The position numbers and the translations under genes are program-made. From contig NZ_JACHMZ010000001.1 of assembly GCF_014205165.1 (NCBI RefSeq), positions 868,001-932,000 on the forward strand: DNA of 64,000 nucleotides, written 5' to 3'. This document shows, piece by piece, positions 16,318 through 41,925 of this stretch. The number at the start of each line of letters is the position of its first letter. Position 1 is the stretch's first letter. The notes below the pieces were generated by a model, which was not told the origin of the DNA, did not search any database, and saw nothing but the letters and a program-made list of their open reading frames with translations. This stretch comes from Micromonospora carbonacea (GTDB lineage Bacteria > Actinomycetota > Actinomycetes > Mycobacteriales > Micromonosporaceae).

Positions 16318-16348
16318 CTTAGCCTTCGTTCAGTCTCGCCGCTAGGGT
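16318..16348 (+). promoter_or_regulatory. hbd promoter with acyl-CoA-type operator (site a)
   Basis: The 16-mer CTTAGCCTTCGTTCAG (16318-16333) belongs to a motif shared with three other acyl-CoA loci in this window. It contains the candidate -35 TTAGCC; TAGGGT (16343-16348) follows after 18 bp as -10. The icmA promoter has the same geometry. Confidence 0.55.
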
Positions 16349-16383
16349 GCTGACAGACACTCAATCAGGCGAGGGAGAAGCAG

Positions 16384-17232
16384 ATGGCGGGTCGACTCGC
16401 GGTCGTCGGGGCCGGGCTGATGGGCTCGGGCATCGCCCAGGTGGCGGCGCAGGCGGGATGGCAGGTGACGCTGCGGGACCTGGACGACGCGGCCACCGGC
16501 CGCGGACTGGCCGGCATCCGGAAGTCGCTGGAGAAGTTCGCCGAGAAGGGCAAGATCGAGCCGGGCGAGGTGGACGCCGCGCTCGGCCGGATCACCCCGA
16601 CGACCGACCTGGAGGCGGTGGCCGACGCGGACATCGTCGTCGAGGCGGTCTTCGAGCGGCTGGAGATCAAGCAGGAGGTCTTCCGGGCCCTGGACAAGCT
16701 CTGCAGGGCCGACGCGGTGCTCGCCACCAACACCTCCGCCATCCCGGTCACCCAGATCGCCGCCGTCACCGAGCGCCCCGAGTCGGTCGTCGGCACGCAC
16801 TTCTTCTCGCCGGTGCCGATGATGAAGCTGTGCGAGCTGGTCCGGGGCTACAAGACCAGCGACGAGACCCTGGCCACCGCGAGGGCGTTCGCCGAGGAGA
16901 TCGGCAAGACCGTCGTCGTGGTGAACCGGGACATCGCCGGCTTCGTCACCACCCGGCTGATCGCCGCGCTGGTCGTCGAGGCGGTCAAGCTGGTCGAGTC
17001 CGGCGTGGTGTCGGCCGAGGACCTGGACACCGCCTGCAAGCTCGGCTTCGGGCACGCGATGGGGCCGCTGGCGACCACCGACCTGACCGGCGTCGACGTG
17101 CTCATGCACGCCTCGAAGAACATCTACACCGACACGGCCGACGAGAAGTTCTTCCCGCCGGAGCTGCTCCAGCGGATGGTCACCGCCGGCGACCTGGGGC
17201 GCAAGACGGGCAAGGGCTTCTACACGTACTGA
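16384..17232 (+). CDS. 3-hydroxybutyryl-CoA dehydrogenase
   Basis: 282 residues, single 3-hydroxyacyl-CoA dehydrogenase module. The NAD-binding GAGLMGSG is at residues 9-16, the acidic residue after beta-2 is in LRDLDD, and the catalytic His139 lies in THFFSPVPMM with the partner Glu in the VVEAVFERLEIK region upstream. The C-terminal domain ends LGRKTGKGFYTY, typical of Hbd/PaaH/FadB2. It interconverts 3-hydroxybutyryl-CoA and acetoacetyl-CoA, fitting butyrate, polyhydroxybutyrate or ethylmalonyl-CoA-pathway metabolism. GGGAGAAG precedes the ATG. It is monocistronic with a promoter and operator of its own. Confidence 0.92.
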   Translation: MAGRLAVVGAGLMGSGIAQVAAQAGWQVTLRDLDDAATGRGLAGIRKSLEKFAEKGKIEPGEVDAALGRITPTTDLEAVADADIVVEAVFERLEIKQEVFRALDKLCRADAVLATNTSAIPVTQIAAVTERPESVVGTHFFSPVPMMKLCELVRGYKTSDETLATARAFAEEIGKTVVVVNRDIAGFVTTRLIAALVVEAVKLVESGVVSAEDLDTACKLGFGHAMGPLATTDLTGVDVLMHASKNIYTDTADEKFFPPELLQRMVTAGDLGRKTGKGFYTY

Positions 17233-17244
17233 CGGGCGCGGCGT

Positions 17245-17269
17245 GGCCCGCAGACGCACCCTGCGGGCC
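17245..17269. terminator. Hairpin between convergent hbd and esterase genes
   Basis: GGCCCGCA and TGCGGGCC form an 8-bp stem with a 9-nt loop. The segment CCCTGCGG recurs three times in the next 70 bp, so further stems are possible. Confidence 0.5.
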
Positions 17270-17365
17270 CTCCCGCCGCCCGTGCCCTGCGGGCCACGTC
17301 GCCGTCCACGCCCTGCGGCCCTCCCGCAGCCCGCTCCCGGGGACCCCGCCCGCCGCCGGTCGACG

Positions 17366-18175
17366 TCAGGGGCGGGCGAGGGCGGCGCCCAGCAGGGCGA
17401 AGGCGTCCGGGACGACCCGCCCCCAGTAGGTGAAGTCGTGCCGGCCGTCGGCGTACCCTTCCCGGACCGGGGGCTCGGGCAGGGCGCGGGCCAGCGCCTG
17501 CACGTCGTCCAGCAGCCCGTCCTGCCGGCCGCACCAGAGCCCGACCGGGGTGCCGCGCAGCCGGGCCGCGCCGGTGAAGACGGCGTCCCCGGCGTGTACG
17601 GCGGGGGAGAAGGCGGCCACCGCGCGCAGCCAGCCGGGGAAGGTCTCCGCGAGCAGCAGCGACCCGAAGCCGCCCATCGACCAGCCCCAGGCGGCGACCC
17701 GGGCGACGTCGAAGCCGCGCTCGGCGCACCAGGCCGGCACCTCCTCGCGCACCATCCGCTGTGGATCGTCGGCCCCCGACGGGCGCCAGGAGAGCCGGCC
17801 GCCGGTCGCCCCGGCGAGGACGAACGGCGGCGCGCCGCCGCGCACGGCGTCGGTGAGGAACCGGGCGAGACCGAAGCGCGCGTAGTCGCGCGGGGTGGCC
17901 GACGCGCCGTGCAACACCAGGCAGACCGGCAGCCCCCGCCCGTCGCCGTGGCCGGCGGGCACGGCCGTCCAGAAGTCGACGGTACGGCCCCGGGCCGCCG
18001 ACTCCCGCCGGAGCAGCCGCTCGTCGCCGGCCGGGGCGTCCGGCAGCGCGGGGGCCGGCCCCGGGCGGGGGCGGATCAGCTCCCGGGCCGCCACGGCACC
18101 GCCCACGGCGAGCACCGCCGCGCCGGACGCGGCCACCAGCACCCCGCGCCGACTCAGTCGTGCCACCACCGGCAC
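17366..18175 (-). CDS. Tat-exported alpha/beta hydrolase (esterase)
   Basis: 269 residues with a twin-arginine signal (RLSRRGVLVAASGAAVLAVGG, residues 6-26) and then an alpha/beta-hydrolase fold of the esterase D/antigen 85-like group. The oxyanion region is LVLHGAS, the nucleophile Ser166 is in GWSMGG, and a late His is in GRHDFTYWG. The GTG at 18175 follows GGGAG by 3 nt; later GTG codons are possible but would cut the Tat motif. The substrate is unknown. It is probably exported and membrane- or wall-associated. Confidence 0.8.
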   Translation of the reverse strand: MPVVARLSRRGVLVAASGAAVLAVGGAVAARELIRPRPGPAPALPDAPAGDERLLRRESAARGRTVDFWTAVPAGHGDGRGLPVCLVLHGASATPRDYARFGLARFLTDAVRGGAPPFVLAGATGGRLSWRPSGADDPQRMVREEVPAWCAERGFDVARVAAWGWSMGGFGSLLLAETFPGWLRAVAAFSPAVHAGDAVFTGAARLRGTPVGLWCGRQDGLLDDVQALARALPEPPVREGYADGRHDFTYWGRVVPDAFALLGAALARP

Positions 18176-18243
18176 AGTCTCCCAGCCCCGCCCCGCAGCG
18201 GCTGCCCCGCGCCCGGCGCGGGTGGGGGCCGGCGGTGAGCGGG

Positions 18244-18286
18244 GTGCCCCGCTCTACCGGATGCGTTAACAGGGGGCCCTTCCTTG
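18244..18286 (-). repeat. Composite GTTAACAGGGGGCCCTTCCTT repeat, copy A
   Basis: Contains ATGCGTTAAC and AGGGGGCCCTTCCTT. Read on the minus strand it begins AAGGAAGGGCCCC a few bases after the permease stop codon. It shares this arrangement with copies at 22086 and 38559, and more loosely 28604. Confidence 0.75.
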
Positions 18287-18293
18287 CGCCAGG

Positions 18294-19142
18294 TCAGCCG
18301 TCGCGCTTCGTGGTCCAGCGGAAGGTGGTCAGGCACAGGACCAGGCCGATCACGCACCACAGCCCCAGCACGAGGGCGACCCGGCCCAGCTCGAACGAGC
18401 CGCCCGGCTCCTGCGCGCCGAAGCCGTCGGGCAGGAAGACCGAGCGCAGGCCCTGGCACATCCACTTCAGCGGGAACAGCGCCGCCACCTGCTGCATCCA
18501 GGAGGGCAGGTTGGTGAAGACGAAGAAGACGCCGGAGATGAACTGGAGGACGAGGGCGACCGGGGTGACCACGGCCGAGCCGCTGCGCGCCGTGCGGGCC
18601 AGCGACGAGATCGCGATGCCGCACAGCGTGCACGCGGTGACCCCGAGGACGGAGACCCAGCCGAAGGTGAGCCACCTGCCGGCCGTGCCGGGCAGTTCCA
18701 GGTCGAACAGGGCGACCGAGACGGCGAGCAGCAGGGCGGTCTCGGCGACGCCGACCGCCACCACCATGATCACCTTGCCGGCGAACCACACCCACTTCGG
18801 CATCGGCGTGCCCCGGTAGCGCTTCAGCACCCCCCGGTCCCGCTCGATCGGGATCCAGATGCCCAGGTTCTGGAAGCTGACCGTCATCAGGCCGGTCGCG
18901 ATCATGCCGGTGATGAAGTACTGCGTGTAGCTCACCCCGGGGGCGATCTCGTCGCTGAAGATGGCCGCGAAGATCAGGATCATGATGATCGGGAAGCCCA
19001 TCGTGAACACGACGGACTCCCGGCTGCGCAGGAACTGGGTGATCTCCAGCCGGCCCTGGCGCAGGGCGAGCGTGCCCGCGCCCGGCCGGCGGGCGGGCGC
19101 GGCGGCGGTGGCCGGGGCCGCCGGCTTCGTCGTGGTCGTCAT
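18294..19142 (-). CDS. ABC transporter permease (ABC-2 type)
   Basis: 282 residues with six predicted membrane helices and the ABC-2 permease layout of DrrB-type exporters: an N-terminal loop with LEITQFLRSRE, helix 1 VFTMGFPIIMILIFAAI, and a long hydrophobic C-terminal half. It forms an efflux system with the ATPase encoded just upstream; the two overlap by 4 bp (ATGA), so they are translationally coupled. The substrate cannot be read from sequence; drug, lipid or polyketide export are the usual roles. A dispersed palindromic repeat follows the stop closely. Confidence 0.87.
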   Translation of the reverse strand: MTTTTKPAAPATAAAPARRPGAGTLALRQGRLEITQFLRSRESVVFTMGFPIIMILIFAAIFSDEIAPGVSYTQYFITGMIATGLMTVSFQNLGIWIPIERDRGVLKRYRGTPMPKWVWFAGKVIMVVAVGVAETALLLAVSVALFDLELPGTAGRWLTFGWVSVLGVTACTLCGIAISSLARTARSGSAVVTPVALVLQFISGVFFVFTNLPSWMQQVAALFPLKWMCQGLRSVFLPDGFGAQEPGGSFELGRVALVLGLWCVIGLVLCLTTFRWTTKRDG

Positions 19143-19987
19143 CGGTGTCCGATCATGGTCAGGTAGACGTCTTCCAGGGTCGGCCGGGTCACCGTGAGGC
19201 CGGGGACCTCACCGCCGTAGCGCGCGGCCAGCTCGGCGACCAGGGCCGTCGGCGTCGCGCTCTCCGCGCTCTCCGGCACCCCGTCGGGGGTACGCCAGGA
19301 GACCGTCGCCAGGGACTCCTGGCGGTTGCCTAGCAGCTTCGGCGGGGCCACCTCGATCACCCGTCCGGCGGCGATCACCCCGACCCGGTCGGCGAGCGCC
19401 TCGGCCTCGTCGAGGTAGTGGGTGGTCAGCACGATGGTGGTGCCGGCGGCGGCCAGGTCCCGGATCAGCTCCCAGAACTCGCGCCGCGCCTCCGGGTCGA
19501 ACCCGGTGGTCGGCTCGTCGAGGAAGAGCAGCTCGGGGCGGCCGATGATGCCCAGCGCCACGTCGAGGCGGCGCTTCTGCCCGCCCGAGAGGGTGTGCGT
19601 GCGGGCCTTCGCCTTCGCGCCGAGGCCGACCCGCTCGACGACCTTCGCCGGGTCGTCGGCGTCGGGATAGAAGCCCGAGAAGTGCCGGACCACCTCGCCG
19701 ACGGTCAGCTCGTCGAACTCGCCGGTGCCCTGGAGCACGATGCCGACCCGGGAGCGCCAGTCCGGGGCTGGGGCGGCGGGGTCGCTGCCCAGCACCCGGA
19801 CCTCGCCGGAGTCGCGCCGCCGGTAGCCCTCCAGGATCTCCACCGTGGTGGTCTTGCCCGCCCCGTTCGGGCCGAGCAGCGCGAACACCTCGCCCCGCCG
19901 GACGTCGAGGTCCACGCCCGCCACCGCGACGTTGTCGCCGTACGCCTTGCGCAGCCCCCGGACGGAGATCGCCAGCTCGTCATCCAT
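19139..19987 (-). CDS. ABC transporter ATP-binding protein, DrrA-like
   Basis: 282 residues. Walker A GPNGAGKTT is at 39-47, the Q-loop is in LQGTGEF, the signature LSGGQKRRLD and Walker B LLFLDEPT follow, and the switch His is in TTHYLDEAEALADR. The C-terminal extension of about 70 residues is typical of the DrrA family of drug or lipid exporters. The start MDDELAISVRGL at 19987 sits 96 bp from the divergent ecm gene, so both share one control region. Confidence 0.92.
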   Translation of the reverse strand: MDDELAISVRGLRKAYGDNVAVAGVDLDVRRGEVFALLGPNGAGKTTTVEILEGYRRRDSGEVRVLGSDPAAPAPDWRSRVGIVLQGTGEFDELTVGEVVRHFSGFYPDADDPAKVVERVGLGAKAKARTHTLSGGQKRRLDVALGIIGRPELLFLDEPTTGFDPEARREFWELIRDLAAAGTTIVLTTHYLDEAEALADRVGVIAAGRVIEVAPPKLLGNRQESLATVSWRTPDGVPESAESATPTALVAELAARYGGEVPGLTVTRPTLEDVYLTMIGHR

Positions 19988-20041
19988 GCCGTCAAGTGTG
20001 CGACCTGGGCGGGACGGGCGGGCAGGCGGGCCTGTGTGGTT

Positions 20042-20072
20042 TTGCACAACCCGTTCTACTGACCGGTAACTT
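20042..20072 (+). promoter_or_regulatory. ecm promoter with palindromic operator (site e)
   Basis: TTGCAC (20042-20047), a 19-bp spacer and TAACTT (20067-20072) form a candidate promoter. The near-palindrome ACTGACCGGTAACT (20058-20071) covers the -10. Its half-sites resemble those of the CTTAGCGATCGTTCAG motif found at the other acyl-CoA loci. It may also control the divergent ABC genes. Confidence 0.45.
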
Positions 20073-20083
20073 AAACTCCGGAA

Positions 20084-22087
20084 ATGGACGAGAAGGCCCC
20101 CGCCGGCCGGCTGCCCGAGCGCGACCGCCCCTGGGTGATGCGCACCTACGCCGGCCACTCCTCGGCCGCCGCGAGCAACGCCCTCTTCCACCGCAACCTG
20201 GCCAAGGGGCAGACCGGCCTGTCGGTCGCCTTCGACCTGCCCACCCAGACCGGATACGACCCCGACCACGAGCTCGCGGCCGGCGAGGTCGGCCGGGTCG
20301 GGGTGCCCGTGGCGAACCTCGGCGACATGCGGGCCCTCTTCGACAGCATCCCGCTGGCCGACACGAACACGTCCATGACGATCAACGCGCCGGCCATGTG
20401 GCTGCTCGCCCTCTACGGCACGGTCGCCGCCGAGCAGGGGGCGGAGCTGGCCCGCTGCGCCGGCACCACGCAGAACGACATCATCAAGGAGTACCTGTCC
20501 CGGGGCACGTACATCTTCCCGCCGGCGGCGTCGCTGCGGCTCACCGCCGACCTGGTCGCGTACGCGCTGCTCCGGATGCCCCGGTGGAACCCGGTGAACA
20601 TCTGCTCCTACCACCTCCAGGAGGCCGGGGCGACGCCCGTGCAGGAGGTCGGCTTCGCCCTCGCCACCGCCGTCGCCGTCCTCGACGCGGTGCGCGACTG
20701 CGGCCAGGTGCCGCCCGGGCGGATGGGCGACGTCGTCGCCCGGGTCTCGTTCTTCGTCAACGCCGGGGTGCGGTTCGTCGAGGAGACCGCCAAGATGCGC
20801 GCGTTCGGCGCGCTCTGGGACGAGATCACCCGCGACCGCTACGGCGTGACCGACCCCGGGCAGCGCCGCTTCCGGTACGGGGTGCAGGTCAACTCGCTCG
20901 GGCTGACCGAGGCCCAGCCGGAGAACAACGTCCAGCGCATCGTGCTGGAGATGCTCGGCGTCACCCTCTCCCGGGACGCCCGCGCCCGCGCCGTGCAGCT
21001 CCCGGCCTGGAACGAGGCGCTGGGCCTGCCCCGCCCCTTCGACCAGCAGTGGTCGCTGCGGATGCAGCAGGTCCTCGCGTACGAGTCCGACCTGCTGGAA
21101 TATCCGGACCTGTTCGCCGGCTCGCACGTGATGACCGCGCTGGTCGACGGGATCGTCACCGGGGCGCGGGTCGAACTGGAGAAGGTGCTGGGGATGGGCG
21201 GCGTGGTGGCCGCCGTCGAATCCGGATACCTCAAGAGCGCGCTGGTCGCCTCGCTGGCCGAGCGCCGTCGCCGGCTGGAGTCCGGCGCGGACACGGTGGT
21301 GGGCGTCAACCGGTTCACCGGGACCGAGCCGTCGCCGCTGACCGCCGCCGGCGCCGACTCCATCGAGCAGGTCGACCCGGCGGTGGAGGCGGCGGCCGTG
21401 GCCGCCGTACGCGACTGGCGGGCCGGACGCGACGGCGCGGCCGTCGACGCGGCACTGGAGCGGCTCCGCGCGGACGCCGCGACCACCGCGAACCTGATGC
21501 CCGCGACGCTGGAGTGCGTGCGGGCCGGGGTGACCACCGGCGAGTGGGCCGGCGCGCTGCGGCGGGTCTTCGGCGAGTACCGGGCGCCGACCGGGCTGGC
21601 CGGCGGCGTCGGGGCCGGCGGCGACGCGACCCTGGCCGCCGTGCGGCAGCGCGTCGCCGTGACCGGCCGGGAGTTGGGCGGCGGTCGGCTGCGGCTGCTG
21701 GTCGGCAAGCCCGGCCTCGACGGGCACTCCAACGGGGCCGAGCAGATTGCCGTGCGCGCCCGCGACGCCGGCTTCGAGGTGATCTACCAGGGGATCCGGC
21801 TGACCGCCGGCCAGATCGTCGCCGCCGCCGTGGAGGAGGACGTCGACCTCGTCGGCCTGTCCGTGCTCTCCGGCTCGCACCTGGCCGTCGTGCCGGCGGT
21901 GCTGGACGGCCTGCGCGCCGCCGGCCGGGGCGACCTGCCGGTGGTGGTCGGTGGCATCATCCCGGCCGGCGACGCCGACGCGCTGCGGGCGGCCGGCGTC
22001 GCCCGGGTCTTCACGCCGAGGGACTTCGCGCTGACCGGCATCGTCGACGAGCTGGTCACCGTGGTCCGCCACGCCAACGGCTTGTAA
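20084..22087 (+). CDS. B12-dependent acyl-CoA mutase, ethylmalonyl-CoA mutase (Ecm/MeaA) type
   Basis: 667 residues in one chain. The N-terminal TIM-barrel catalytic domain (to about 500) starts WVMRTYAGHSS and has GLSVAFDLPTQTGYDPDH. The C-terminal cobalamin domain carries DGHSNG at 546-551 with the axial His548. Tyr22 in MRTYAGH and Arg140 in IIKEYLSRGTYIF are kept, as in methylmalonyl- and ethylmalonyl-CoA mutases and unlike isobutyryl-CoA mutase. Length and fused layout match MeaA/Ecm, the mutase of the ethylmalonyl-CoA pathway for C2 assimilation, or its role in extender-unit supply. The partner crotonyl-CoA carboxylase/reductase gene is not in the window. Confidence 0.85.
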   Translation: MDEKAPAGRLPERDRPWVMRTYAGHSSAAASNALFHRNLAKGQTGLSVAFDLPTQTGYDPDHELAAGEVGRVGVPVANLGDMRALFDSIPLADTNTSMTINAPAMWLLALYGTVAAEQGAELARCAGTTQNDIIKEYLSRGTYIFPPAASLRLTADLVAYALLRMPRWNPVNICSYHLQEAGATPVQEVGFALATAVAVLDAVRDCGQVPPGRMGDVVARVSFFVNAGVRFVEETAKMRAFGALWDEITRDRYGVTDPGQRRFRYGVQVNSLGLTEAQPENNVQRIVLEMLGVTLSRDARARAVQLPAWNEALGLPRPFDQQWSLRMQQVLAYESDLLEYPDLFAGSHVMTALVDGIVTGARVELEKVLGMGGVVAAVESGYLKSALVASLAERRRRLESGADTVVGVNRFTGTEPSPLTAAGADSIEQVDPAVEAAAVAAVRDWRAGRDGAAVDAALERLRADAATTANLMPATLECVRAGVTTGEWAGALRRVFGEYRAPTGLAGGVGAGGDATLAAVRQRVAVTGRELGGGRLRLLVGKPGLDGHSNGAEQIAVRARDAGFEVIYQGIRLTAGQIVAAAVEEDVDLVGLSVLSGSHLAVVPAVLDGLRAAGRGDLPVVVGGIIPAGDADALRAAGVARVFTPRDFALTGIVDELVTVVRHANGL

Positions 22088-22140
22088 GGAAGGGCCCCCT
22101 GTTAACGCATTCCGTTGTACAAGGGGCCCCTCTTAACACC
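22086..22140 (+). repeat. Composite GTTAACAGGGGGCCCTTCCTT repeat, copy B
   Basis: AAGGAAGGGCCCCC starts inside the TAA stop codon of ecm and continues through GTTAACGCAT to a second arm AAGGGGCCCCTCTTAACACC. It is the most complete copy together with the one at 38559. It is likely to end ecm transcription. Confidence 0.75.
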
Positions 22141-22186
22141 TGCCGTGGCCGCCGCCAGCGGCGGCGGGTCGGTTGCCGGACGTGGG

Positions 22187-22483: not shown

Positions 22484-22625
22484 GACGGCCTCCTCTGGGC
22501 TCTCGGGTCTCCTCCCATATTAGGTTTTTGCCGGGTTTGTCGTAGCCGATCGGCCGTCCCGGCCCGCCGACCGCGATCGGGCCGCCGACCGCGATCAGGC
22601 CGCGAGCTGCGATCGGGCCACCGGG

Positions 22626-23621: not shown

Positions 23622-23768
23622 CGGGAGATGATCTCTTGGCGGGTGCCCGTCGGCTGCCCCACCCCACCGGGGCCACGCCGTCGGGCGGGGCGGGTCGGTG
23701 TCGGGCGGCGCGGGGTGGGCCGGTGCGAGGTGGGGCGTGGCGGGGTGGGTCGAGGCGGGGGCGGCCGG

Positions 23769-24892: not shown

Positions 24893-24913
24893 CACCAAAA
24901 CCAGCCACAACCA

Positions 24914-24953: not shown

Positions 24954-24974
24954 GGTTGCGTGGGGCGTACCGGA

Positions 24975-29864: not shown

Positions 29865-29880
29865 CTTAGTGACCGTTCAA
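29865..29880 (+). promoter_or_regulatory. Acyl-CoA-type operator (site b) upstream of double 3HCDH
   Basis: CTTAGTGACCGTTCAA matches the shared motif at 12 of 16 positions against the icmA site, with CTTA and GTTC conserved. It is 55 bp before the GTG start of the 3-hydroxyacyl-CoA dehydrogenase. Confidence 0.55.
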
Positions 29881-29935: not shown

Positions 29936-31606
29936 GTGGCGCGCGAGTTCACCAGCGTGGGCGTTGTGGGGCTGGGCACCATGGGTGCCGGCATCGTCGA
30001 GGTCTTCGCGCGCAACGGCATCGACGTCGTCGCGGTCGAGGTCTCCGACGCCGCCCTCGACCGTGGCCGGGCCCACCTGACCGGCTCGACCGACCGGGCC
30101 GTCGCCCGGGGCAAGCTCGCCGAGGCCGACCGGGACGCCCTGCTGGCCCGGGTCGACTTCCAGGTCGGGCTGGCCGCGCTGCACTCGGTGGACCTGGTGG
30201 TCGAGGCGGTCCCCGAGCGCCTCGACCTCAAGCGGCGGATCTTCGCCGAACTGGACCGGGTCTGCAAGCCCGAGGCGGTCCTCGCCACCAACACCTCCTC
30301 GCTGTCGGTCACCGAGGTCTCCGTCGCCACCGGCCGACCCCAGCAGGTCGTCGGCATCCACTTCTTCAACCCGGCCCCGGTGATGAGGCTGGTCGAGGTG
30401 GTCCGCACGGTGGTCACCGCCGCCGACGTGGTCGCCGACGTCGAGGCCCTCTGCGCCCGGCTCGGCAAGGTCGGCGTCACCATCGGCGACCGGGCCGGGT
30501 TCATCGCCAACGCGCTGCTCTTCGGCTACCTCAACCACGCCGTCGGCATGTTCGAGTCGCGCTACGCCAGCCGCGAGGACATCGACGCCGCCATGAAGCT
30601 CGGCGGCGGCCTGCCGATGGGGCCGCTCGCCCTGCTGGACCTCATCGGCCTCGACACCGCGTGCGAGATCCTGGACACCATGTACCGGCGCGGCGGGCGG
30701 GACCGCCGGCACGCCCCGGCGCCGCTGGTCCGGCAGATGGTCACCGCGGGCCTGCTCGGCCGCAAGTCCGGCCGGGGCTTCTACACCTACGAGAAGCCGG
30801 GCTCGGCGAAGGTCGTGCCGGACGGGTCGACCCCGCAGGAGCGGCCGGCGGCCGGCGACGGCGCGCGCCGTGTCGCCCGGGTCGGCGTCGTCGGCTCCGG
30901 GGCGACGGCCGCCGGGCTCGTCGAGGTCTTCGCCGGGGCCGGCTACGAGGTGGTCCGGGTGGCCCCGGGCGGAGACCTCGACGGCCTGGCCGAGGTCGAC
31001 CTGGTCGTCGAGGCCGTGGCCGAGGACCTCGACGTCAAGAAGGAGCTGTTCGCCAGCCTCGACGGCGTCTGCAAGCCGGGCGTCGTGCTCGCCACCACCA
31101 CCTCGTCGCTGCCGGTGATCGACATCGCGATGGCCACCGGGCGGCCCGCCGACGTGATCGGGCTGCACTTCTCCGGCCCGGTGCCGGCGCGGCCCCTGGT
31201 GGAGATCGTGCGGACCGTCCGCACCGGCGCGGAGGCCACCGAGACCGCCCGCGCCGTCTGCGCCACGCTCGACAGGACCGCCGTGGTCTGCGGCGACCGG
31301 GCCGGCTTCGTGGTCGACGCGCTGCTCTTCCCGTACCTGAACGACGCGGTGAAGATGCTGGAGGCCGGCTACGCCACCATCGACGACATCGACCACGCGA
31401 TGAAGCTCGGCTGCGGCTACCCGACGGGCCCGTTCGAGCTGCTCGACGCGGTCGGCCTGGACGTGGCGCTCGCCAGCCAGCGCGCGCTGTACCGCGAGCT
31501 GCGCGACCCCGGCCTCGCCCCGGCCCCGCTGCTGGAGCACCTCGTCACCGCCGGCTACCTGGGCCGCAGGGCCGGGCGCGGCTTCCGCGAGCACCCCGGC
31601 CGCTGA
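29936..31606 (+). CDS. Two-module 3-hydroxyacyl-CoA dehydrogenase
   Basis: 556 residues made of two 3HCDH modules in tandem. Module 1 (about 1-290) is complete: GLGTMGAG at 12-19, NTSSLSVTE, the catalytic His in GIHFFNPAP, and a full C-terminal domain ending GRKSGRGFYTYE. Module 2 (about 314-556) is shorter: it starts GVVGSGATAAG, lacks roughly 50 residues between the second strand and LVVEAVAEDLDVKK, but keeps LHFSGPVPARP and a full C-terminal domain ending RRAGRGFREH. Module 2 may be structural rather than catalytic. The GTG at 29936 is preferred over the TTG at 29921 because GGGGAGG is well placed. It probably acts in fatty-acid beta-oxidation. Confidence 0.88.
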   Translation: MAREFTSVGVVGLGTMGAGIVEVFARNGIDVVAVEVSDAALDRGRAHLTGSTDRAVARGKLAEADRDALLARVDFQVGLAALHSVDLVVEAVPERLDLKRRIFAELDRVCKPEAVLATNTSSLSVTEVSVATGRPQQVVGIHFFNPAPVMRLVEVVRTVVTAADVVADVEALCARLGKVGVTIGDRAGFIANALLFGYLNHAVGMFESRYASREDIDAAMKLGGGLPMGPLALLDLIGLDTACEILDTMYRRGGRDRRHAPAPLVRQMVTAGLLGRKSGRGFYTYEKPGSAKVVPDGSTPQERPAAGDGARRVARVGVVGSGATAAGLVEVFAGAGYEVVRVAPGGDLDGLAEVDLVVEAVAEDLDVKKELFASLDGVCKPGVVLATTTSSLPVIDIAMATGRPADVIGLHFSGPVPARPLVEIVRTVRTGAEATETARAVCATLDRTAVVCGDRAGFVVDALLFPYLNDAVKMLEAGYATIDDIDHAMKLGCGYPTGPFELLDAVGLDVALASQRALYRELRDPGLAPAPLLEHLVTAGYLGRRAGRGFREHPGR

Positions 31607-34400: not shown

Positions 34401-36515
34401 TCACTCGGACTCGACGGACACCTTGCTCGGCCGGGCGCTGCGCTCGTCGGTCGTCGGCTTGGTCGGCCGCTTGCCGTTCTCGCCGGTGCTGGTGATCTTC
34501 GTGGGGGTCGCCCCCCGGCCGCCCTCGCCGGGCACCGCGGCCACCGTCGGCTCGCCGTCCACCCCGGCGCTGGCCGCGCCCCCGTCCACCGTGGTCACCG
34601 GCTCGGCCACCGGCCGGGTCCGGGCCGGGGCGGCGTCGTCGGCCGGCACGGCCTTCGCCACCCCCGCGTCGGCGGTCGCCTTGACCCGCGCGGGCTGCAC
34701 CGGCTCGCCGGACTCGGCGGCTGCCGTCGCCGACCCGGTCGCCTTCACGGGCACCGGCTCGGTGCCCTTCGGCGCGCCGGTCGCCTTCGCGGGCCCGGTC
34801 CCCTTCGGCGCGCCGGCCGTCGTCGCCGGCTCGGTCCCGTTCGGCGTGTCGCCCGCCTTCGCGGGCCCGGCCACCGGCGCGCCCGCCGTGGCCGACAGCC
34901 GGACGCCGGCCAGCTGCTGCCGCAGGTCGAGCAGCTGATGCTGGAGCTCGTCCGACTCCTGCCGGGACTGCCAGGTCTCCTGCCGCAGGTCGGCCAGCTG
35001 CTGCTGGGCCTGGGCGATCTCCAGCATCACCTGGGCGAGCTGCTGGCGGCCGGCGGCCACCTCCTGCTGGGTCGCCGCGAGGTGCTGCTGCGTGGTGGCC
35101 AGATGCTGCTGCGTGGTGGCCGCGTACTCCTCGAACTGGCGGCGGGACGCGGCGACGTGCTCGTCGGCCCGGCGTCGCTTGTCGGTCGCGTCGGCCTCGG
35201 CCCGGCCCAGCAGGTCGGCGGCCTCCTCCTCGGCCTGCCGGCGCATCGTGAGGGCGTCCTGCTCGGCGGCGCGCCGGATCTCCGCGGCACCGTCCTCGAT
35301 CTCGGCCCGCCGGGCGGTGTACTGCTGCTCCAGCTCGGTCTGCCGGGCCGTGTGCTGCCGGTCCAGCTCGTCGCGGCGCTGGGAGTGTTCCCGCTCGGCG
35401 GCCTCCTTGCGCTGGGCCAGCTCCCGGTCGGCCGCCTCGCGCCGGCCGTTGACCTCCTGCTCCACCCCGGCCCGCCAGGCGCCCAGCTCCTGCTGCGTCT
35501 GGGCGCGGGCCTGCTGCACGTACGCCTCGGTCTCGGTGCGCATCCGCTGCACGTACGCCTCGGTGTCGGCACGTTGGCGCTTGCCGGCCTCGGCCGCCTG
35601 GGCGGTGACCCGCTCGGCCTCCTGCCGGGCCCGGTCGCGGGTGGCCTTCGCGGCGCCCTCGGCGTCGTCGGTGATCCGCTTGGCCTCCTGCAACGCCTTG
35701 GCGTGGGTGGCCCGGCTGGCCTCGGTGGCGTTGTCGGTGAGCCGCTTCGCCTCCTGCTGGGCCTTGGCGTGCACCTCCTTGGCCGCCTCGCGGAGCTGGG
35801 TGGCCTCCTGCTGGGCCTTGGCGAGGGCCTCCCGGGCGGCCTCGCGCAGCTTGGTCGCCTCCTGCTGGGCCCGGGTGTGGATCTCCTTCGCGGCGTCCCG
35901 GAGCTGGGTCGCCTCCTGCTGGGCCTTCTCCAGGGCCTCCTGGGCGGCCTTGCGCAGCCGGGTCGACTCGTCCTTGGCCGCCGCGCGCAGCTGGGCGGAC
36001 TCGTCCTTGGCGGCCTTCAGCGTGGCGTCCGCCTCGGCGCGCCGGGCGGCGCCGTGCCGCTCCTCCTCGGCCCGCCGGGCGGCGAGGGCGATCTCGAAGT
36101 CCTTGAGCGCCTGGGCGGCCTGTTCCTTGGCCTCCGCGACGATGTGCTCGGCGGCGGCCCGCCGCGCCTCGATCTCCTCGTTGGCGGCGGCGAGGATGTC
36201 GTCGGCCTGCTCCTCGGCGAGGACGAGGATCTGCTCCACCCGCGGGCCGAGGTGCCGGAACGAGGCCCGGTCCACCACGCCGACCTGCTTGCGCACCTGG
36301 GCGAGGTCGCGTTGCAGCACCTCGACCTGCCCGGCCAGCTTGTGGATCTGGGTGTACGCCTGTTCCCGCTCGGCCGCCAGTGTCGCGATCTCGTGCTCCG
36401 CGCGAGCGACGTACCTGTCGACCTGTCGTTTCTCGTACCCCCGCAGGGCGGACTCGAAGCTGGGCTCCGTCGTCACATCCCCGCCGAGAGCGAACAGTTC
36501 CTCGCCGTGCGACAT
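34401..36515 (-). CDS. Large coiled-coil DivIVA-like protein, Scy-type polarity determinant
   Basis: 704 residues. An N-terminal DivIVA-like segment (SFESALRGYEKRQVDRYVARAEHEI) leads into a coiled coil of over 450 residues built of Ala/Glu/Gln/Arg heptads with repeated QQEATQLREAAKE units. The last 140 residues are a Pro/Ala/Gly/Thr-rich disordered tail. With the neighbouring FilP-like gene and the downstream mce-thiolase-meaB genes this matches the Streptomyces scy-filP region, where these proteins organise tip growth and the cytoskeleton. Scy of Streptomyces is about twice as long, so this may be a shortened version. The ATG at 36515 has a weak ribosome-binding site. Confidence 0.72.
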   Translation of the reverse strand: MSHGEELFALGGDVTTEPSFESALRGYEKRQVDRYVARAEHEIATLAAEREQAYTQIHKLAGQVEVLQRDLAQVRKQVGVVDRASFRHLGPRVEQILVLAEEQADDILAAANEEIEARRAAAEHIVAEAKEQAAQALKDFEIALAARRAEEERHGAARRAEADATLKAAKDESAQLRAAAKDESTRLRKAAQEALEKAQQEATQLRDAAKEIHTRAQQEATKLREAAREALAKAQQEATQLREAAKEVHAKAQQEAKRLTDNATEASRATHAKALQEAKRITDDAEGAAKATRDRARQEAERVTAQAAEAGKRQRADTEAYVQRMRTETEAYVQQARAQTQQELGAWRAGVEQEVNGRREAADRELAQRKEAAEREHSQRRDELDRQHTARQTELEQQYTARRAEIEDGAAEIRRAAEQDALTMRRQAEEEAADLLGRAEADATDKRRRADEHVAASRRQFEEYAATTQQHLATTQQHLAATQQEVAAGRQQLAQVMLEIAQAQQQLADLRQETWQSRQESDELQHQLLDLRQQLAGVRLSATAGAPVAGPAKAGDTPNGTEPATTAGAPKGTGPAKATGAPKGTEPVPVKATGSATAAAESGEPVQPARVKATADAGVAKAVPADDAAPARTRPVAEPVTTVDGGAASAGVDGEPTVAAVPGEGGRGATPTKITSTGENGKRPTKPTTDERSARPSKVSVESE

Positions 36516-36624
36516 GCCCCCATCCTCACACGCATCCGGCTCGGCTGGGGCGATACGGACGCCCCGGATGGGAGCTGATTCACTGCCGTTACCGACGCCC
36601 GTGCCGCGGCGCGGGAAAACGCAT

Positions 36625-36668
36625 ACGGCGCGGGGTCCCACCGGTTACCCGGTGTCACCCCGCGCCGT
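36625..36668 (-). terminator. Hairpin between the two coiled-coil genes
   Basis: Two 20-nt arms pair with only two mismatches around the loop TTAC. It lies directly after the FilP-like gene, so the two coiled-coil genes are probably separate transcripts or the second is attenuated. Confidence 0.75.
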
Positions 36669-36695
36669 GTCCATGCCCCCCGGCCGTGCGGTCGG

Positions 36696-37949
36696 TCAGC
36701 CGGCGGACTCCGCGCTCACCCGCTCGTCCTTGCCGTCCGCCTTGGCCGGCTCCGGCTTGGCCTGCGCCGGCGGCACGCCCGGCACGATGCCGGCGAGGCC
36801 CGACAGCATCTGGCCGAGCTGCGAGGTGACGGCGTCCTTCTGCCGGGTGAGGTCCTCGACCTCGCGGCGGGCGGCCTGCGTGGTCAGGTCGGCCTCGGTG
36901 CGGGCCTCCGTGAGCAGCCGCTTCGCCTCGGCCTTGGCCTCGTTGAGCGTCTTCTCGGACAGCGCCTTGGCCTTCTCGACGGTGTCGTTGGCGGTGCGCT
37001 CGGACTCGACCCGGCGGGCCTCGGCGCGCTGCTCGATCTCCTTGGCCCGCTCCTGGGCGGCCCGGGCGCGCTGCTCGGCCTCGCCGACCAGCTTCTGCGT
37101 CTGGGCGACCTGGGCGGCGTGCCGCTCGGACTCCTCGCGCTCGGCCTTCTCGCGCCGCTCGGCGAGCTGCAGCTCCAGGGCCTGGAGGTCCTTGTCGCGC
37201 TTGTCGCGGGCGTCGGTGAGGAGCTTGGTCGCCTCGGCGCGCTTCTCCTCGGCCTCCCGCGCGGCCTTCGCCCGCTGCTGGGTGATCTCCCGCTCGGCGG
37301 TGGCGCGCAGGGTGGCGACCTCACGCTCGACGGTCGACTTCAGCTCGGCGACCTCGTGCGCGGTGACGGTGCGCAGCTGCTTGGTCTCCCGCTCGGCGTC
37401 GGCGCGCAGGGTGTCGGCCTCCCGGCGGGCCTGCACGCGCACCTCGGCGGCCTCGCGCTCGGCGGCGGTGCGGACACTGCCGGCCTCGCGCTCGGCGGTG
37501 GCCTTCATCGCGGCGGCCTCGGCGCGGGCCTTGTCGGTGATCTCGCGCGCCTCCAGGCGGGCCGCGGAGAGGATGCCCTCGGACTCGCGCTTGGCCTCGT
37601 TGCGGTGGTCGTTGGCCTGCTCCTCGGCCAGCCGCAGGATCTGCTCGACGCGGGTGCCCAGGCCGGAGAGGGTCGGCCGGCTGTTCTCCTCGAGCTGCTT
37701 GTTGGTCTCGGCGAGCTTCTGCTCCAGCGCGCTCTGGCGCTGCTCGGCCTGGCGGAGCCGACGCTGGGCGTCGTTCATCCGCTGCTCGGCCTCGGCGCGG
37801 GCCTGCTCGGACTGGGTCAGCGCGGCGGTCAGCCGACCGATGAAGTCATCGACCTGCCCGACGTTGTATCCGCGCAGGCCAACGGTGAAATCTGGCTGCG
37901 AGTTCGCGTTATCGAAGAACGCAAGAGGGGAGGACTGCTGCTGGGGCAT
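36696..37949 (-). CDS. Coiled-coil DivIVA-like protein, FilP-type cytoskeletal protein
   Basis: 417 residues. The head contains DFTVGLRGYNVGQVDDFIGRL, the DivIVA-type membrane or tip-targeting segment. A nearly continuous coiled coil spans about residues 45-375, dominated by EREA, EAR and AEREI heptads. The short tail is Pro/Ala-rich. FilP of Streptomyces is an intermediate-filament-like protein that interacts with DivIVA at hyphal tips. No Shine-Dalgarno precedes the ATG, so a leaderless start is possible. High charge and alanine content make long spurious frames on the opposite strand; those are not genes. Confidence 0.72.
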   Translation of the reverse strand: MPQQQSSPLAFFDNANSQPDFTVGLRGYNVGQVDDFIGRLTAALTQSEQARAEAEQRMNDAQRRLRQAEQRQSALEQKLAETNKQLEENSRPTLSGLGTRVEQILRLAEEQANDHRNEAKRESEGILSAARLEAREITDKARAEAAAMKATAEREAGSVRTAAEREAAEVRVQARREADTLRADAERETKQLRTVTAHEVAELKSTVEREVATLRATAEREITQQRAKAAREAEEKRAEATKLLTDARDKRDKDLQALELQLAERREKAEREESERHAAQVAQTQKLVGEAEQRARAAQERAKEIEQRAEARRVESERTANDTVEKAKALSEKTLNEAKAEAKRLLTEARTEADLTTQAARREVEDLTRQKDAVTSQLGQMLSGLAGIVPGVPPAQAKPEPAKADGKDERVSAESAG

Positions 37950-38411
37950 TGGGACATACTCGCAGACCCCCCGGGGTGCTTCGCAAGAGCGGTGCGGGCC
38001 TTTCGTGTCCTGTTTACATGGTCAACTGACTGCCGTCGGGCGGGTCCGATCGGTGGGCGATCTTGGCAGCTCCCGGGCCGGTCCGGCGGCCCGGTGGGCG
38101 GATGGTCGGGCGCGCCGGAGGCGAGTGGTCGGGCGGCCGGGTGGGCGGTGGCCGGGTGGCCCGGTGGGCGGGTGTTCGGGCGCGCGGGGGCGTGCGGGAA
38201 AAGGGCCGCGGGAGCGCCCGGCGGTCCTTTGCCGGCCCGTGCCGGTTTCTTGTCGGCCGGTGCCGGCGATTTTCCCTGTCGGCCGTGCCGGCATCGCGCG
38301 AAATGGGGACCGCAGCCGGCGTCGAAAGGCAATGCCCGACCACCGCGATGCCCGACTGGGCCTCCCCGGACGACTCGCCGGCGGCCGGGGGGTCAGCGGC
38401 TGCAGGACCGC

Positions 38412-38489
38412 TTGATCGACTTCATGTCGGCCGGATGGGGGTCTCCCGTCCCGTCGACACCGCCAGGTCACCGACGTGAAGTCGATCAA
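38412..38489. repeat. Dispersed palindromic repeat, TTGATCGACTTCATGTCGG family, copy 2
   Basis: TTGATCGACTTCATGTCGG (38412-38430) pairs with CCGACGTGAAGTCGATCAA (38471-38489), 19 bp with one G-U. The left arm is identical to the copy at 23770. Confidence 0.8.
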
Positions 38490-38558
38490 CTCGGCCGCGC
38501 ACCACTGCGCTCGCGCGGGGGGCTGTGGTGGTGCCGGCGCGGGGTGGGGTGGGGGTGG

Positions 38559-38610
38559 TTAAGAAGGGGCCCCTGCTCTACAGAATGCGTTAACAGGGGG
38601 CCCTTCCTTT
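38559..38610 (-). repeat. Composite GTTAACAGGGGGCCCTTCCTT repeat, copy D
   Basis: TTAAGAAGGGGCCCCTGCTC, then ATGCGTTAACAGGGGGCCC and TTCCTTTC. Read on the minus strand it begins a few bases after the mce stop codon, as copies A and B do after their genes. Confidence 0.8.
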
Positions 38611-38616
38611 CACCTT

Positions 38617-39087
38617 TCACCGCCGGGCGGGCTCGACCAGCTCGACGAGGACGCCGCCCGCGTCCTTCGGGTGGACGAAGTTGATCCGGGAGTCGGCGGT
38701 GCCCCGGCGCGGGGTCTCGAAGAGCAGCCGCAGGCCGCGCTCGCGCAGCGCCGCGCACGCCGCGTCGATGTCGGCCACCGTGTACGCCACCTGCTGCACG
38801 CCGGGCCCCGAGCGGTCGAGGAACTTGGCGATGGTCGACTCCGGGGTGAGCGGGGCGAGCAGTTGCACGCAGCCGCCCTCGGCGGTCGGCCCGACCGTCA
38901 GCATCGCCTCGCGGACGCCCTGCTCGGTGTTGGTCTCGGTGTGCACGCAGCGCATGCCGAAGGTGCGCTGGTAGAAGTCGATCGCGGCGTCGAGGTCGGC
39001 GACGGCGATCCCGACGTGGTCGATGCGGCGCAGGCCGATGTCTGTGACGAAGTCGGCAGCGGGCTCGACGGGGGAGTTCTCAGCCAT
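38617..39087 (-). CDS. mce: Methylmalonyl-CoA epimerase
   Basis: 156 residues of the vicinal-oxygen-chelate fold: [25 protein letters not shown] in the first module with metal-binding His, GCVQLLAP, and LVELVEP with the final metal Glu in the second. It interconverts (2R)- and (2S)-methylmalonyl-CoA (and ethylmalonyl-CoA in some bacteria), linking propionyl-CoA or ethylmalonyl-CoA chemistry to the B12 mutases. It shares an 81-bp divergent region with the thiolase gene, where an acyl-CoA-type operator lies. CAGACT lies 6 nt before the ATG, compatible with a leaderless message. Confidence 0.92.
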
Positions 39088-39116
39088 GGCGTTAGTCTGA
39101 CCGAACACCCGTCCAA

Positions 39117-39132
39117 CCGAACAATCGTTAAG
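39117..39132 (-). promoter_or_regulatory. Acyl-CoA-type operator (site c) between mce and thiolase
   Basis: CCGAACAATCGTTAAG; read on the minus strand it is CTTAACGATTGTTCGG, sharing CTTA and GTTC with the other sites. It overlaps TAAGGT (39129-39134), a good -10 for the thiolase gene. Confidence 0.55.
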
Positions 39133-39168
39133 GTTCACAGCTCGGCACCCCCCTCGGAGGGCAAGCAC

Positions 39169-40365
39169 ATGGCTTCGGTGATCGTCAGCGGCGCGCGGAC
39201 CCCGATGGGTCGCCTGCTCGGCAACCTCAAGGACCTTCCCGCCACCAAGCTCGGCGGCATCGCGATCAAGGCCGCGCTGGAGCGCGCCGGGGTGCCCCCC
39301 GAGCAGGTGCAGTACGTCATCATGGGCCAGGTCCTCCAGGCCGGCACCGGGCAGATCCCGGCCCGGCAGGCCGCCGTCGAGGCGGGCATCCCGATGTCCG
39401 TGCCGGCGCTGACGATCAACAAGGTCTGCCTCTCCGGCCTGGACGCGATCGCCCTGGCCGACCAGCTCATCCGGGCCGGCGAGTTCGACGTCGTGGTGGC
39501 CGGCGGCATGGAGTCGATGACCAACGCCCCGCACCTGCTGCTCGGCCAGCGCGCCGGCTACAAGTACGGCGACGTGACGATCAAGGACCACATGGCCCTC
39601 GACGGGCTGACCGACGCCTGGGACTGCTGCTCGATGGGCGAGTCCACCGAGCGGCACGGCGCGCGGCACGGCATCACCCGCGCCGAGCAGGACGCCTTCG
39701 CCGCCGCCAGCCACCAGCGGGCCGCCGCCGCGCAGAAGAACGGCCACTTCGCCGACGAGATCACCCCGGTGGTCATCCCGCAGCGCAAGGGCGACCCGGT
39801 GGTGATCAGCGAGGACGAGGGCATCCGCCCGGACACCACCGTCGAGTCGCTGGGCCGGCTGCGCCCCGCCTTCACCTCCGACGGCACGATCACCGCCGGC
39901 AGCGCCTCGCCGATCTCCGACGGGGCCGCGGCCGTGGTCGTGATGAGCGAGGCGAAGGCCCGGGAGCTGGGGCTGACCTGGCTCGCCGAGATCGGCGCGC
40001 ACGGCAACGTGGCGGGCCCCGACAACTCGCTGCACTCGCAGCCCTCCAACGCGATCAACCACGCGCTGCGCAAGGGCGGCCTGGGGGTGGAGGACCTCGA
40101 CCTGGTCGAGATCAACGAGGCGTTCGCCGCGGTCGGCATCCAGTCCATGCGCGACCTGGGCATCGGCGACGACAAGGTCAACGTCAACGGCGGCGCGATC
40201 GCGCTGGGCCACCCGATCGGCATGTCCGGGGCCCGGCTGGTGCTCACCCTCGCCATGGAGCTGCGGCGGCGCGGCGGTGGCACCGGCGCGGCGGCGCTCT
40301 GCGGCGGCGGGGGCCAGGGCGACGCCCTGATCATCCACGTACCCGACCCCGCCGAGCAGCAGTGA
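39169..40365 (+). CDS. Acetyl-CoA C-acetyltransferase (thiolase)
   Basis: 398 residues. The acyl-accepting Cys87 is in [11 protein letters not shown], the base His348 in [11 protein letters not shown], and the second Cys378 in [10 protein letters not shown]; these are the three catalytic residues of thiolases. It makes acetoacetyl-CoA from two acetyl-CoA or cleaves it. The ATG at 39169 follows GGAGG by 8 nt. The meaB start overlaps its stop, so the two are coupled. The same pair, beside an epimerase, is found in the Streptomyces filP-scy region. Confidence 0.94.
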
Positions 40366-41366
40366 GCGGAGCCGTCGCGCAGGTCCCGGCCGGCGGCGTG
40401 CCGTCGGTGCGCCGCAGCCGGGACGTGCCGATGCTCGTGGAGCGGGCCCGCGCCGGCGACCCGCGCGCCGTGGCCCGGCTGATCACCCTGGTCGAATCCG
40501 GCGACGAGGTGTTGCCCCGGGTGGCGGCGGCCCTCGCGCCGTACGCCGGGCAGGCCCAGGTGGTCGGGCTGACCGGGTCGCCCGGGGTGGGCAAGTCGAC
40601 CACCACCAACGAGCTGGTCCGGGCGCTGCGCTCGCGCGGGCACCGGGTCGGGGTGCTGGCCGTCGACCCGTCCAGCCCGTTCACCGGCGGGGCGATCCTC
40701 GGCGACCGGGTCCGGATGCAGGACCACGCCACCGACCCGGGCGTCTACATCCGGTCGATGTCCAGCCGGGGCCACCTCGGCGGGCTGTCGGCGGCGACCC
40801 CGCAGGCGGTGCGGGTGCTGGAGGGCGCCGGCTGCGACGTGGTGCTGGTGGAGACCGTCGGCGTCGGGCAGGCCGAGGTCGAGGTCGCCTCGCTGGCCGA
40901 CACGACGCTGGTGCTGCTCGCCCCGGGCATGGGCGACGCGATCCAGGCGGTGAAGGCCGGCATCCTGGAGATCGCCGACGTCTTCGTGGTCAACAAGGCC
41001 GACCGCGACGGCGCAGACGCCACCGTCCGCGACATCCAGGGCATGATCGCCCTCGGCGAGCGGGGGCCCGGCGAGTGGCGGCCGCAGGTGGTGCGGTCGG
41101 TCGCCGCGCGGGGCGAGGGGATCGACGACGTCGCCGCCGCGATCGACAAGCACCGCGGCTGGCTGGTCGAGCACGACGAGCTGCGCCGCCGCCGCGAGAA
41201 GCGGGCCGCCGCCGAGATCGAGGCGATCACGCTGGGCGTGCTGCGGGCGCGGATCGGTTCGCTGCACGACGGTACGGAGCTGCCGGCGCTCGCCGCGAAG
41301 GTGGCCGAGGGGGCGCTCGACCCGTACGCCGCCGCCGACGAGTTGCTGGCCCAGATCGGCTCCTGA
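40362..41366 (+). CDS. meaB: MeaB-type G-protein chaperone of B12-dependent mutases
   Basis: 334 residues. The P-loop GSPGVGKST lies at 72-80, followed by [40 protein letters not shown] and the guanine-binding NKADRDGA. These are signatures of the MeaB/ArgK GTPases. MeaB loads adenosylcobalamin onto methylmalonyl-type mutases, protects them and helps exchange damaged cofactor; the IcmA and Ecm enzymes encoded nearby are the likely clients. The GTG start overlaps the thiolase stop (GTGA). Confidence 0.92.
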
Positions 41367-41395
41367 CGCGTCCACTGCGGACCCCCGGCAACGAG

Positions 41396-41434
41396 TACGC
41401 TCGCACCGCCCCACGGTCGGCGTGGGGCGGTGCG
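41396..41434 (+). promoter_or_regulatory. TACGCT -10 element fused to a 14-bp hairpin
   Basis: TACGCT (41396-41401) is directly followed by a perfect 14-bp stem with the loop GTCGG (41402-41434). The stem could end the meaB transcript or form a structured 5' leader for the Asp23 gene. Confidence 0.5.
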
Positions 41435-41454
41435 CGCGTGTTGGGGGAGAGGTC

Positions 41455-41868
41455 ATGGCTGACGAGGCGACGCAGGAGCTGTCGGTGACGCCGGACGCGG
41501 TGGCGGGCGGGACCACCCACGTCTCCGACGAGGTGGTGGAGAAGATCGCGGTGGCCGCCGCGCGGTCCGTCCCCGGGGTGGCCGACCTCGGTGGCGACGT
41601 GGCCCGGTTCTTCAACGCCGTCTTCGACCGAGTCGGGCTGGACCAGGTCGGCGATGCCCGGCGCGGCTGCTCGGCGCACGTCACGAACGGCGCGGCCGTG
41701 GTCAACCTGGTCGTCGTGCTCGACGCCGGCCGGCCGGTGCCGGAGGTGACCGACGGGGTGCGGGCGGCGGTGACCCGGGCCGTCGAGGCGTACGGGCTGC
41801 GGGTCGACGAGATCAACATCCGGGTGGACGACGTGGCGCTCGGCGACCCCGCCGCCGCGCCGGCCTGA
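41455..41868 (+). CDS. Asp23/Gls24 family protein
   Basis: 137 residues with the Asp23/DUF322 core (VSDEVVEKIAVAAARSVPGVADLGG, then VVNLVVVLDAGRPVPEVTDGVRAAV and INIRVDDV). Family members are cytoplasmic or membrane-associated and linked to envelope or alkaline stress. In place of a membrane anchor this protein has only polar ends. GGGGGAGAGG precedes the ATG. It sits between meaB and icmA without an obvious metabolic link. Confidence 0.85.
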   Translation: MADEATQELSVTPDAVAGGTTHVSDEVVEKIAVAAARSVPGVADLGGDVARFFNAVFDRVGLDQVGDARRGCSAHVTNGAAVVNLVVVLDAGRPVPEVTDGVRAAVTRAVEAYGLRVDEINIRVDDVALGDPAAAPA

Positions 41869-41894
41869 CCGGGTTACCTGCCGGTACACGACTC

Positions 41895-41925
41895 CTTAGC
41901 GATCGTTCAGGCCGGGGGCTACACT
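41895..41925 (+). promoter_or_regulatory. icmA promoter with acyl-CoA-type operator (site d)
   Basis: CTTAGCGATCGTTCAG (41895-41910) is the best version of the shared motif and is nearly palindromic about CGATCG. TTAGCG inside it can be the -35; TACACT (41920-41925) follows after 18 bp. The hbd promoter has the same geometry. Confidence 0.65.

Follow-up and report, generated by a model that had tools for sequence, protein, structure and literature searches.

In a 64,000-nucleotide stretch of the Micromonospora carbonacea genome (assembly GCF_014205165.1, contig NZ_JACHMZ010000001.1, positions 868,001 to 932,000 of the forward strand; called the window below), four 16-bp sites stand upstream of genes of acyl-coenzyme A (acyl-CoA) metabolism. 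We consider it likely that they are operators of one regulon for the breakdown of short-chain acyl-CoAs, propionyl-CoA and branched-chain amino acids, and that its regulator is a TetR-type protein, encoded outside the window, which is an ortholog of AccR and BkaR with a changed operator and a changed recognition helix. A first-pass annotation of the window had proposed that one trans-acting regulator, probably of the TetR type, governs these genes of short-chain acyl-CoA metabolism. This proposal is well supported by inference, since the sites are kept across genera and in a second family, further sites in the genome lie at acyl-CoA genes, and in several relatives a site is found at the TetR gene itself; on the other side, no TetR gene with a convincing regulon site was found in the M. 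carbonacea genome. Features in the window are given below in window coordinates and all others in genome coordinates.

The Four Sites in the Window

The pattern CTTANNNNNNGTTC (CTTA-N6-GTTC) has exactly four matches in the window, where 0.16 are expected, and none of 100 shuffles reaches four. Each match lies directly upstream of an acyl-CoA gene. It should be pointed out that the pattern was derived from these four sites, and the window count alone thus overstates the significance. Because of this choice, proof must come from elsewhere, and conservation serves as the independent test. In the 7.53 Mb genome the pattern has 20 matches versus 12 for the reversed pattern, with four of the 20 inside one 26-kb stretch. 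Four of the 16 matches outside the window are identical 14-mers within near-identical 2.2-kb repeats, which we take to be 23S rRNA.

The first putative operator, CTTAGCCTTCGTTCAG (16318-16333, plus strand), is located upstream of hbd (16384-17232, plus), a 3-hydroxybutyryl-CoA dehydrogenase gene by NCBIfam, and overlaps a likely −35 element, with the likely −10, TAGGGT (16343-16348, plus), coming 18 bp after TTAGCC (16319-16324). The second, CTTAGTGACCGTTCAA (29865-29880, plus), precedes the gene of a double-domain 3-hydroxyacyl-CoA dehydrogenase (3HCDH; 29936-31606, plus; two NCBIfam matches per protein). The third, CTTAACGATTGTTCGG (39117-39132, minus), lies in the divergent promoter between mce, encoding methylmalonyl-CoA epimerase (38617-39087, minus; TIGR03081 above its cut-off), and a thiolase gene (acetyl-CoA C-acetyltransferase; 39169-40365, plus). 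The fourth, CTTAGCGATCGTTCAG (41895-41910, plus), is the best copy in the window and stands before an icmA-like gene for the large subunit of an acyl-CoA mutase (41963-43651, plus; TIGR00641); here the likely −10, TACACT (41920-41925, plus), follows 18 bp after TTAGCG (41896-41901). The two −10 elements are assigned from sequence only, the first three operators from sequence and site conservation, and the fourth from sequence and from the icmA promoters of three genera described below. The copy at 41895 is also the most symmetric one, with six of the eight half-site positions paired, compared to three, four and five in the others.

These results bear out the descriptive part of the first-pass annotation, which had placed the four 16-mers at the same positions and strands, noted that CTTA and GTTC are kept in all of them, called the best copy nearly palindromic, located the −35 in the motif with TAnnnT exactly 18 bp on at hbd and icmA, and named the hbd, double 3HCDH, epimerase, thiolase and mutase large-subunit genes.

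Further Sites in the Genome

The genome was scanned with a relaxed pattern, CTKARYGAYCGTTCAG, which also came from the window sites and in which dyads count on both strands. With up to three mismatches it gives 224 strand matches versus 82 for the reversed control. With up to two mismatches there are 23 distinct places, 11 of them upstream of acyl-CoA or linked carbon genes (seven of 19 outside the window). The seven sites outside the window are found at ppdK (1194264), ilvE (5279556), etfB with etfA behind it (5366916), a biotin carboxylase gene (5973636), an acyl-CoA dehydrogenase gene (6130191), an HpcH/HpaI lyase gene (6133416), and accD1/pccB with an acyl-CoA dehydrogenase gene behind it (7040013).

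A matrix built from these 11 sites, that is, four from the window and seven from elsewhere in the genome, finds two more outside its training set. The first (6124289, score 16.8) is upstream of a MaoC hydratase gene, about 45 bases from its ATG. The second (623311-623326, L412, score 17.9) precedes the gene of a B12-binding acyl-CoA mutase subunit, after which come sucC and sucD, and has the top score among the 39 three-mismatch places scored, which were taken from the matches listed, up to about 2.67 Mb. The B12-subunit/sucC locus of a genome from another family (G040, L222) likewise has a site. The predicted operator is thus common to icmA, which encodes the large mutase subunit in the window, and to the gene of the small B12 subunit at its separate locus. 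In a control with 248 upstream stretches, which were partly chosen for holding sites, 18 score at least 15; 14 of these are regulon sites, and the other four belong to two intergenic regions between TetR and exporter genes.

Conservation in Related Genomes

For the thiolase, 3HCDH and hbd proteins, the best matches were taken from 14 genomes of eight genera, including two genomes from another family. The score of a promoter is the best matrix value within 300 bp upstream. Each stretch was shuffled 200 times (first order) for comparison, and a site was accepted at p ≤ 0.015. Overall, the site is kept at 33 of the 41 orthologous or best-match promoters, in agreement with what the first-pass annotation had expected of related genomes. 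It is present at 12 of 14 thiolase promoters (11 by the shuffle test, plus that of G055, with a score of 22.3 and no shuffle test), at 10 of 14 promoters of the 3HCDH best matches, and at 11 of 13 promoters of hbd orthologs, a count that excludes G040, whose best match is the 3HCDH protein. The promoters without a site belong mostly to distant matches (40–68% identity), and the 3HCDH promoter of G040 (70%) also has none. The dyad remains, at a similar distance from the start codon, while the flanking sequence diverges.

Among 397 genomes from the order, 76 contain the strict palindrome CTKARCGATCGYTMAG, namely 64 of 79 from the family of M. carbonacea, all three from family f5, and nine of 315 from other families. 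At 26 loci with this palindrome (L089-L114), the site lies in an icmA promoter in 16 cases, in an accD1/pccB promoter in seven, in an acyl-CoA dehydrogenase promoter in one and elsewhere in two. At L091, in a genome of family f2 (G074:C4:333343-333358), CTTAGCGATCGCTAAG is flanked by a TetR gene and a short-chain dehydrogenase/reductase gene that diverges from it.

The Candidate Regulator

The TetR upstream scan of the M. carbonacea genome covered 52 regions and the one at 839.7 kb, with PF00440 scored for 150 of 217 first-look candidates, so that some TetR genes of this genome may be missing from it. Within this scope, similar sites were found only upstream of TetR genes beside exporters, and the search was for this reason moved to the relatives.

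The candidate that we propose is a TetR of 209 amino acids encoded at 7,045,586-7,046,215 on the minus strand, near the accD1/pccB site and beside the accA1, hmgL, accD1 and acd genes. In M. carbonacea, these four genes and the TetR gene all lie within 11 kb, though interrupted. The protein matches PF00440 (TetR_N) with 63.1 bits, and its best matches in the PDB are 4g12, 6yj2 and 6yl2 (E 3.5e-43; 4g12 over residues 20-203), all of which we take to be the BkaR protein. The only NCBIfam family that it matches is the SACE_7040 family (NF050111), at 230.9 bits, which is below the curated cut-off of 250; an ortholog from family f15 reaches 276.4.

Orthologs are present in 22 of the 22 genomes searched. 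In five of them (G097, G371, G263, G367 and G387), a site with a score between 18.5 and 26.2 is located about 47 bases upstream of the TetR gene. This corresponds to five of the 18 loci from the M. carbonacea family and f5 (L189-L206). The first-pass annotation had proposed to look for a TetR gene preceded by the motif, and such genes exist at these five loci; in M. carbonacea the only ones among the regions scanned are those beside exporters. In two genomes the site is instead between the TetR gene and accA1 (G055, score 25.7; G186, score 28.0), and G055 has a weaker one upstream of the TetR gene itself. The clearest arrangement is that of G371, with contiguous TetR, accA1 and hmgL genes followed by accD1 and acd, one site before the TetR gene and another before accD1. 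In G040, the TetR gene is 6 kb from an acyl-CoA dehydrogenase gene with a perfect CTTAACGATCGTTAAG.

Operator and Recognition Helix

We now turn to the orthologs of the candidate in other lineages. The set consists of the best 80 of 573 named loci, from Streptomyces, Amycolatopsis, Saccharopolyspora, Lentzea and others, and the alignment used as the query was led by more distant orthologs. In all 80, GTTAA-N6-TTAAC (called G-type below) is found with up to two mismatches within 250 bp upstream of the TetR gene, compared to a mean of 2.1 and a maximum of 5 for shuffled sequences. The operator with the outer bases C...G (C-type) is found with up to one mismatch in none of these 80 upstream regions (shuffled mean 3.3). 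Homologs of accD1, accA1, hmgL or acd lie beside the TetR gene at 79 of the 80 loci. Upstream of the M. carbonacea TetR gene, GTTAA-N6-TTAAC does not occur within two mismatches, the best match having five.

The variant GTTAR-N6-YTAAC has five places in the M. carbonacea genome, all without the inner CG...CG of the AccR sites. In genomes of the same family, most of its matches read GTTAGG...CCTAAC and look like iron boxes of the DtxR/IdeR type rather than AccR sites.

The recognition helix differs between the same two groups. All 20 proteins from the M. carbonacea family and f5 have LYHHF, within VTGPALYHHF or near variants, and all 83 others have LYRHF, within ISGP(A/G)LYRHF; the change is from Arg to His at position 61 of the M. 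carbonacea protein. Thr/Ser at position 55 and Ala/Val at position 52 separate the groups almost as cleanly. A tree was built from 68 of the 103 rows, comprising all 20 of these proteins and 48 of the 83 others, and a branch with a support of 99 separates the 20 from the rest.

Weighing the Evidence

A number of observations speak against the assignment of the sites to this regulator. The first concern the TetR gene itself. In the genus of M. carbonacea (its own gene and those of G002 and G003), no site is present upstream of it, and no score exceeds 11 at 11 of the 18 loci L189-L206, or at 12 of 19 when the partial L213 is counted. Among the five sites that do stand upstream of it, that of G097 is equally near to the G-type, which makes it intermediate between the two operators, and that of G263 is two mismatches from the C-type. 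Three other TetR genes of M. carbonacea have similar upstream sites. The change of operator together with helix is, moreover, a correlation confounded with phylogeny, because it corresponds to a single event on one branch of the tree.

Other observations concern the distribution of the motif. The first-pass annotation had expected hits in the genome to concentrate before acyl-CoA genes. This holds for the 11 places discussed above, while the other 12 of the 23 are unrelated, being two tandem copies at a TetR gene linked to an MMPL exporter gene and ten scattered places, most of them within predicted genes. Five of the nine genomes from other families with the strict C-type palindrome belong to f15, for which the G-type is expected. 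Of the places within three mismatches of CTTAACGATCGTTAAG, four of nine fit the regulon in G135 and five of 12 in G040, where the reversed pattern has counts of 0 and 7, respectively. Finally, two genes have no operator, namely ccr, present as a single copy in the genome and without a site upstream, and the second acyl-CoA mutase gene of the window (20084-22087, 667 amino acids, with B12 domain), which differs in this from icmA.

Another option considered was a regulon of the ethylmalonyl-CoA pathway, prompted by the stretch of HpcH, MaoC and acyl-CoA dehydrogenase genes together with the mutases. This reading is weakened by the lack of a site at ccr and at the 667-residue mutase, and by the scores of the HpcH and MaoC proteins, which fall short of the cut-offs set for their matching families.

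Alternative Explanations

The sites could form a single regulon that is run by another TetR of M. carbonacea, either the MMPL-linked one at 839.7 kb, with two copies of CTGACCGATCGGTCAG upstream, or the one at 5,160.0 kb, with the site CTCACCGACCGTTAAG. With the regulon matrix, the sites upstream of these two genes reach scores of 20.3 and 16.4, the half-sites CTGACCG and CTGAACG differ at a single base, and the tandem CTGACCGATCGGTCAG pair is present in most of the same-genus genomes among those listed. We nevertheless regard this as unlikely, since both genes adjoin MMPL-type exporter genes, as is usual for a local efflux repressor, and since the sites at 839.7 kb have a C at position 5, which is found in just one of 12 regulon sites on the left half and in one on the right. 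The AccR/BkaR ortholog, unlike these two, adjoins regulon genes. The comparison across genera, which was made for this ortholog, also shows sites at its gene in relatives from several of them. At 839.7 kb the two tandem copies (G000:C1:839877-839911; L027, L088) are perfect palindromes, followed by the TetR gene and then the exporter gene. It is possible that the CTGACCGATCGGTCAG sites are near enough to the regulon operator for cross-talk.

Somewhat less probable still is the scenario of several local regulators with look-alike palindromes and no common regulon, an example being the PadR-family gene that adjoins the biotin carboxylase site both in M. carbonacea, where it is divergent (L039), and in G135, where it has the same direction (L171). 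TetR operators of this size often look alike, which would favor such a scenario. What speaks against it is that the same dyad is found at about 12 unlinked acyl-CoA loci, most of them without an adjacent regulator gene, and that its position is kept across genera.

That the motif is a promoter element, the −35 of one sigma factor class, rather than an operator would fit its placement 18 bp from TAnnnT at hbd and icmA, but is very improbable given that both halves of the dyad are conserved, that its placement with respect to the start codon and the likely −10 is not constant (at icmA in G278, L098, TAGTAT comes directly after it), and that other lineages have a dyad of the same spacing upstream of AccR-type genes.

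Proposed Mechanism

Returning to regulation by the AccR/BkaR ortholog, we infer from sequence that this TetR binds the sites, represses the genes and senses an acyl-CoA. A dimer of the protein would bind the 16-bp dyad (about CTTAACGATCGTTAAG) and cover the −35 element, as at hbd and icmA, or the start of transcription, blocking the promoter in this way. The repressor would then be released by an acyl-CoA that builds up when these substrates are plentiful. Relative to AccR and BkaR, the core TTAACGnnCGTTAA would have been retained, with the outer G...C replaced by C...G and the arginine of the recognition helix by histidine, so that the operator would have moved from GTTAA...TTAAC to CTTAA...TTAAG.

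The gene set can be read as a single route, on which branched-chain amino acids and odd-chain acids would pass through the acyl-CoA dehydrogenases (with electron-transfer flavoprotein), the carboxylases, the epimerase and the B12 mutase to succinyl-CoA, while the thiolase and hbd would serve the C4 units and ppdK would return carbon toward sugars. On balance we lean slightly towards the wider view that in the family of M. carbonacea and one neighboring family, the AccR/BkaR repressor and its operators at roughly a dozen promoters switched specificity together, and that the regulon broadened to the flow of propionyl-CoA, methylmalonyl-CoA and branched-chain acyl-CoAs, with the two B12-dependent mutase subunits, encoded at separate loci, among its targets; the broadening is relative to the AccR targets given in the accessible parts of the papers cited below.

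Short-chain acyl-CoAs feed polyketide antibiotics, a class of compounds for which these actinomycetes are important, and a named repressor and operator of acyl-CoA breakdown would be a direct target for raising the precursor supply. A lineage-wide operator change with one matching helix change would also be a natural test case of how a repressor and many sites can shift specificity with control kept.

As to the neighboring genes in the window, meaB, encoding a mutase-associated GTPase (40362-41366, plus; TIGR00750), overlaps the thiolase gene and is possibly co-transcribed with it. Between meaB and icmA there is a gene of an Asp23-family protein (41422-41868), which is kept in several loci of the same genus.

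Comparison with Known Systems

We found no description of this regulon in Micromonospora or Actinoplanes, including the string AACGATCGTT, in the open-licence literature. The operator does not match the motifs given for SAV7471, PccD, SAV151, FasR and PaaR in the accessible parts of PMC10933834, nor the Rv0158 motif as given in those of PMC10501769. The first-pass annotation had called the regulon undescribed. This has to be qualified, because the TetR belongs with the known AccR and BkaR by descent and gene neighborhood; what seems to be new, as judged from the same open-licence literature, is the altered operator together with the set of genes that it precedes in this family.

The comparisons that follow refer to what the accessible parts of the cited papers state. 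AccR of Streptomyces avermitilis is a TetR with the operator GTTAA-N6-TTAAC that represses accD1A1-hmgL-fadE4, echA8, echA9 and fadE2 (PMC10933834), and its ligands are given as methylcrotonyl-, propionyl- and acetyl-CoA (PMC8546615). The candidate TetR resembles it as an ortholog by sequence neighborhood that lies beside accD1, accA1, hmgL and acd, with a 16-bp dyad of the same spacing and core and with acyl-CoA genes as targets. It differs in the outer bases, which are C...G here and G...C in AccR, and in the His that replaces Arg in the recognition helix. Unlike the AccR targets listed in PMC10933834, the sites here are located at the mutase subunits, the epimerase-thiolase promoter, hbd, 3HCDH, etfB, ppdK and ilvE.

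BkaR of mycobacteria (Rv2506 / MSMEG_4718) has the operator core GTTAnTn4AnTAAC and controls the accD1...bkdC operon (PMC3920632). It is an autoregulated TetR beside branched-chain keto-acid genes, and its dyad has the same length as the one found here. The operator of M. carbonacea differs from that of BkaR in its outer bases, and BkaR has the Arg (YRHF in the PDB sequence) and a smaller regulon of about 10–12 genes.

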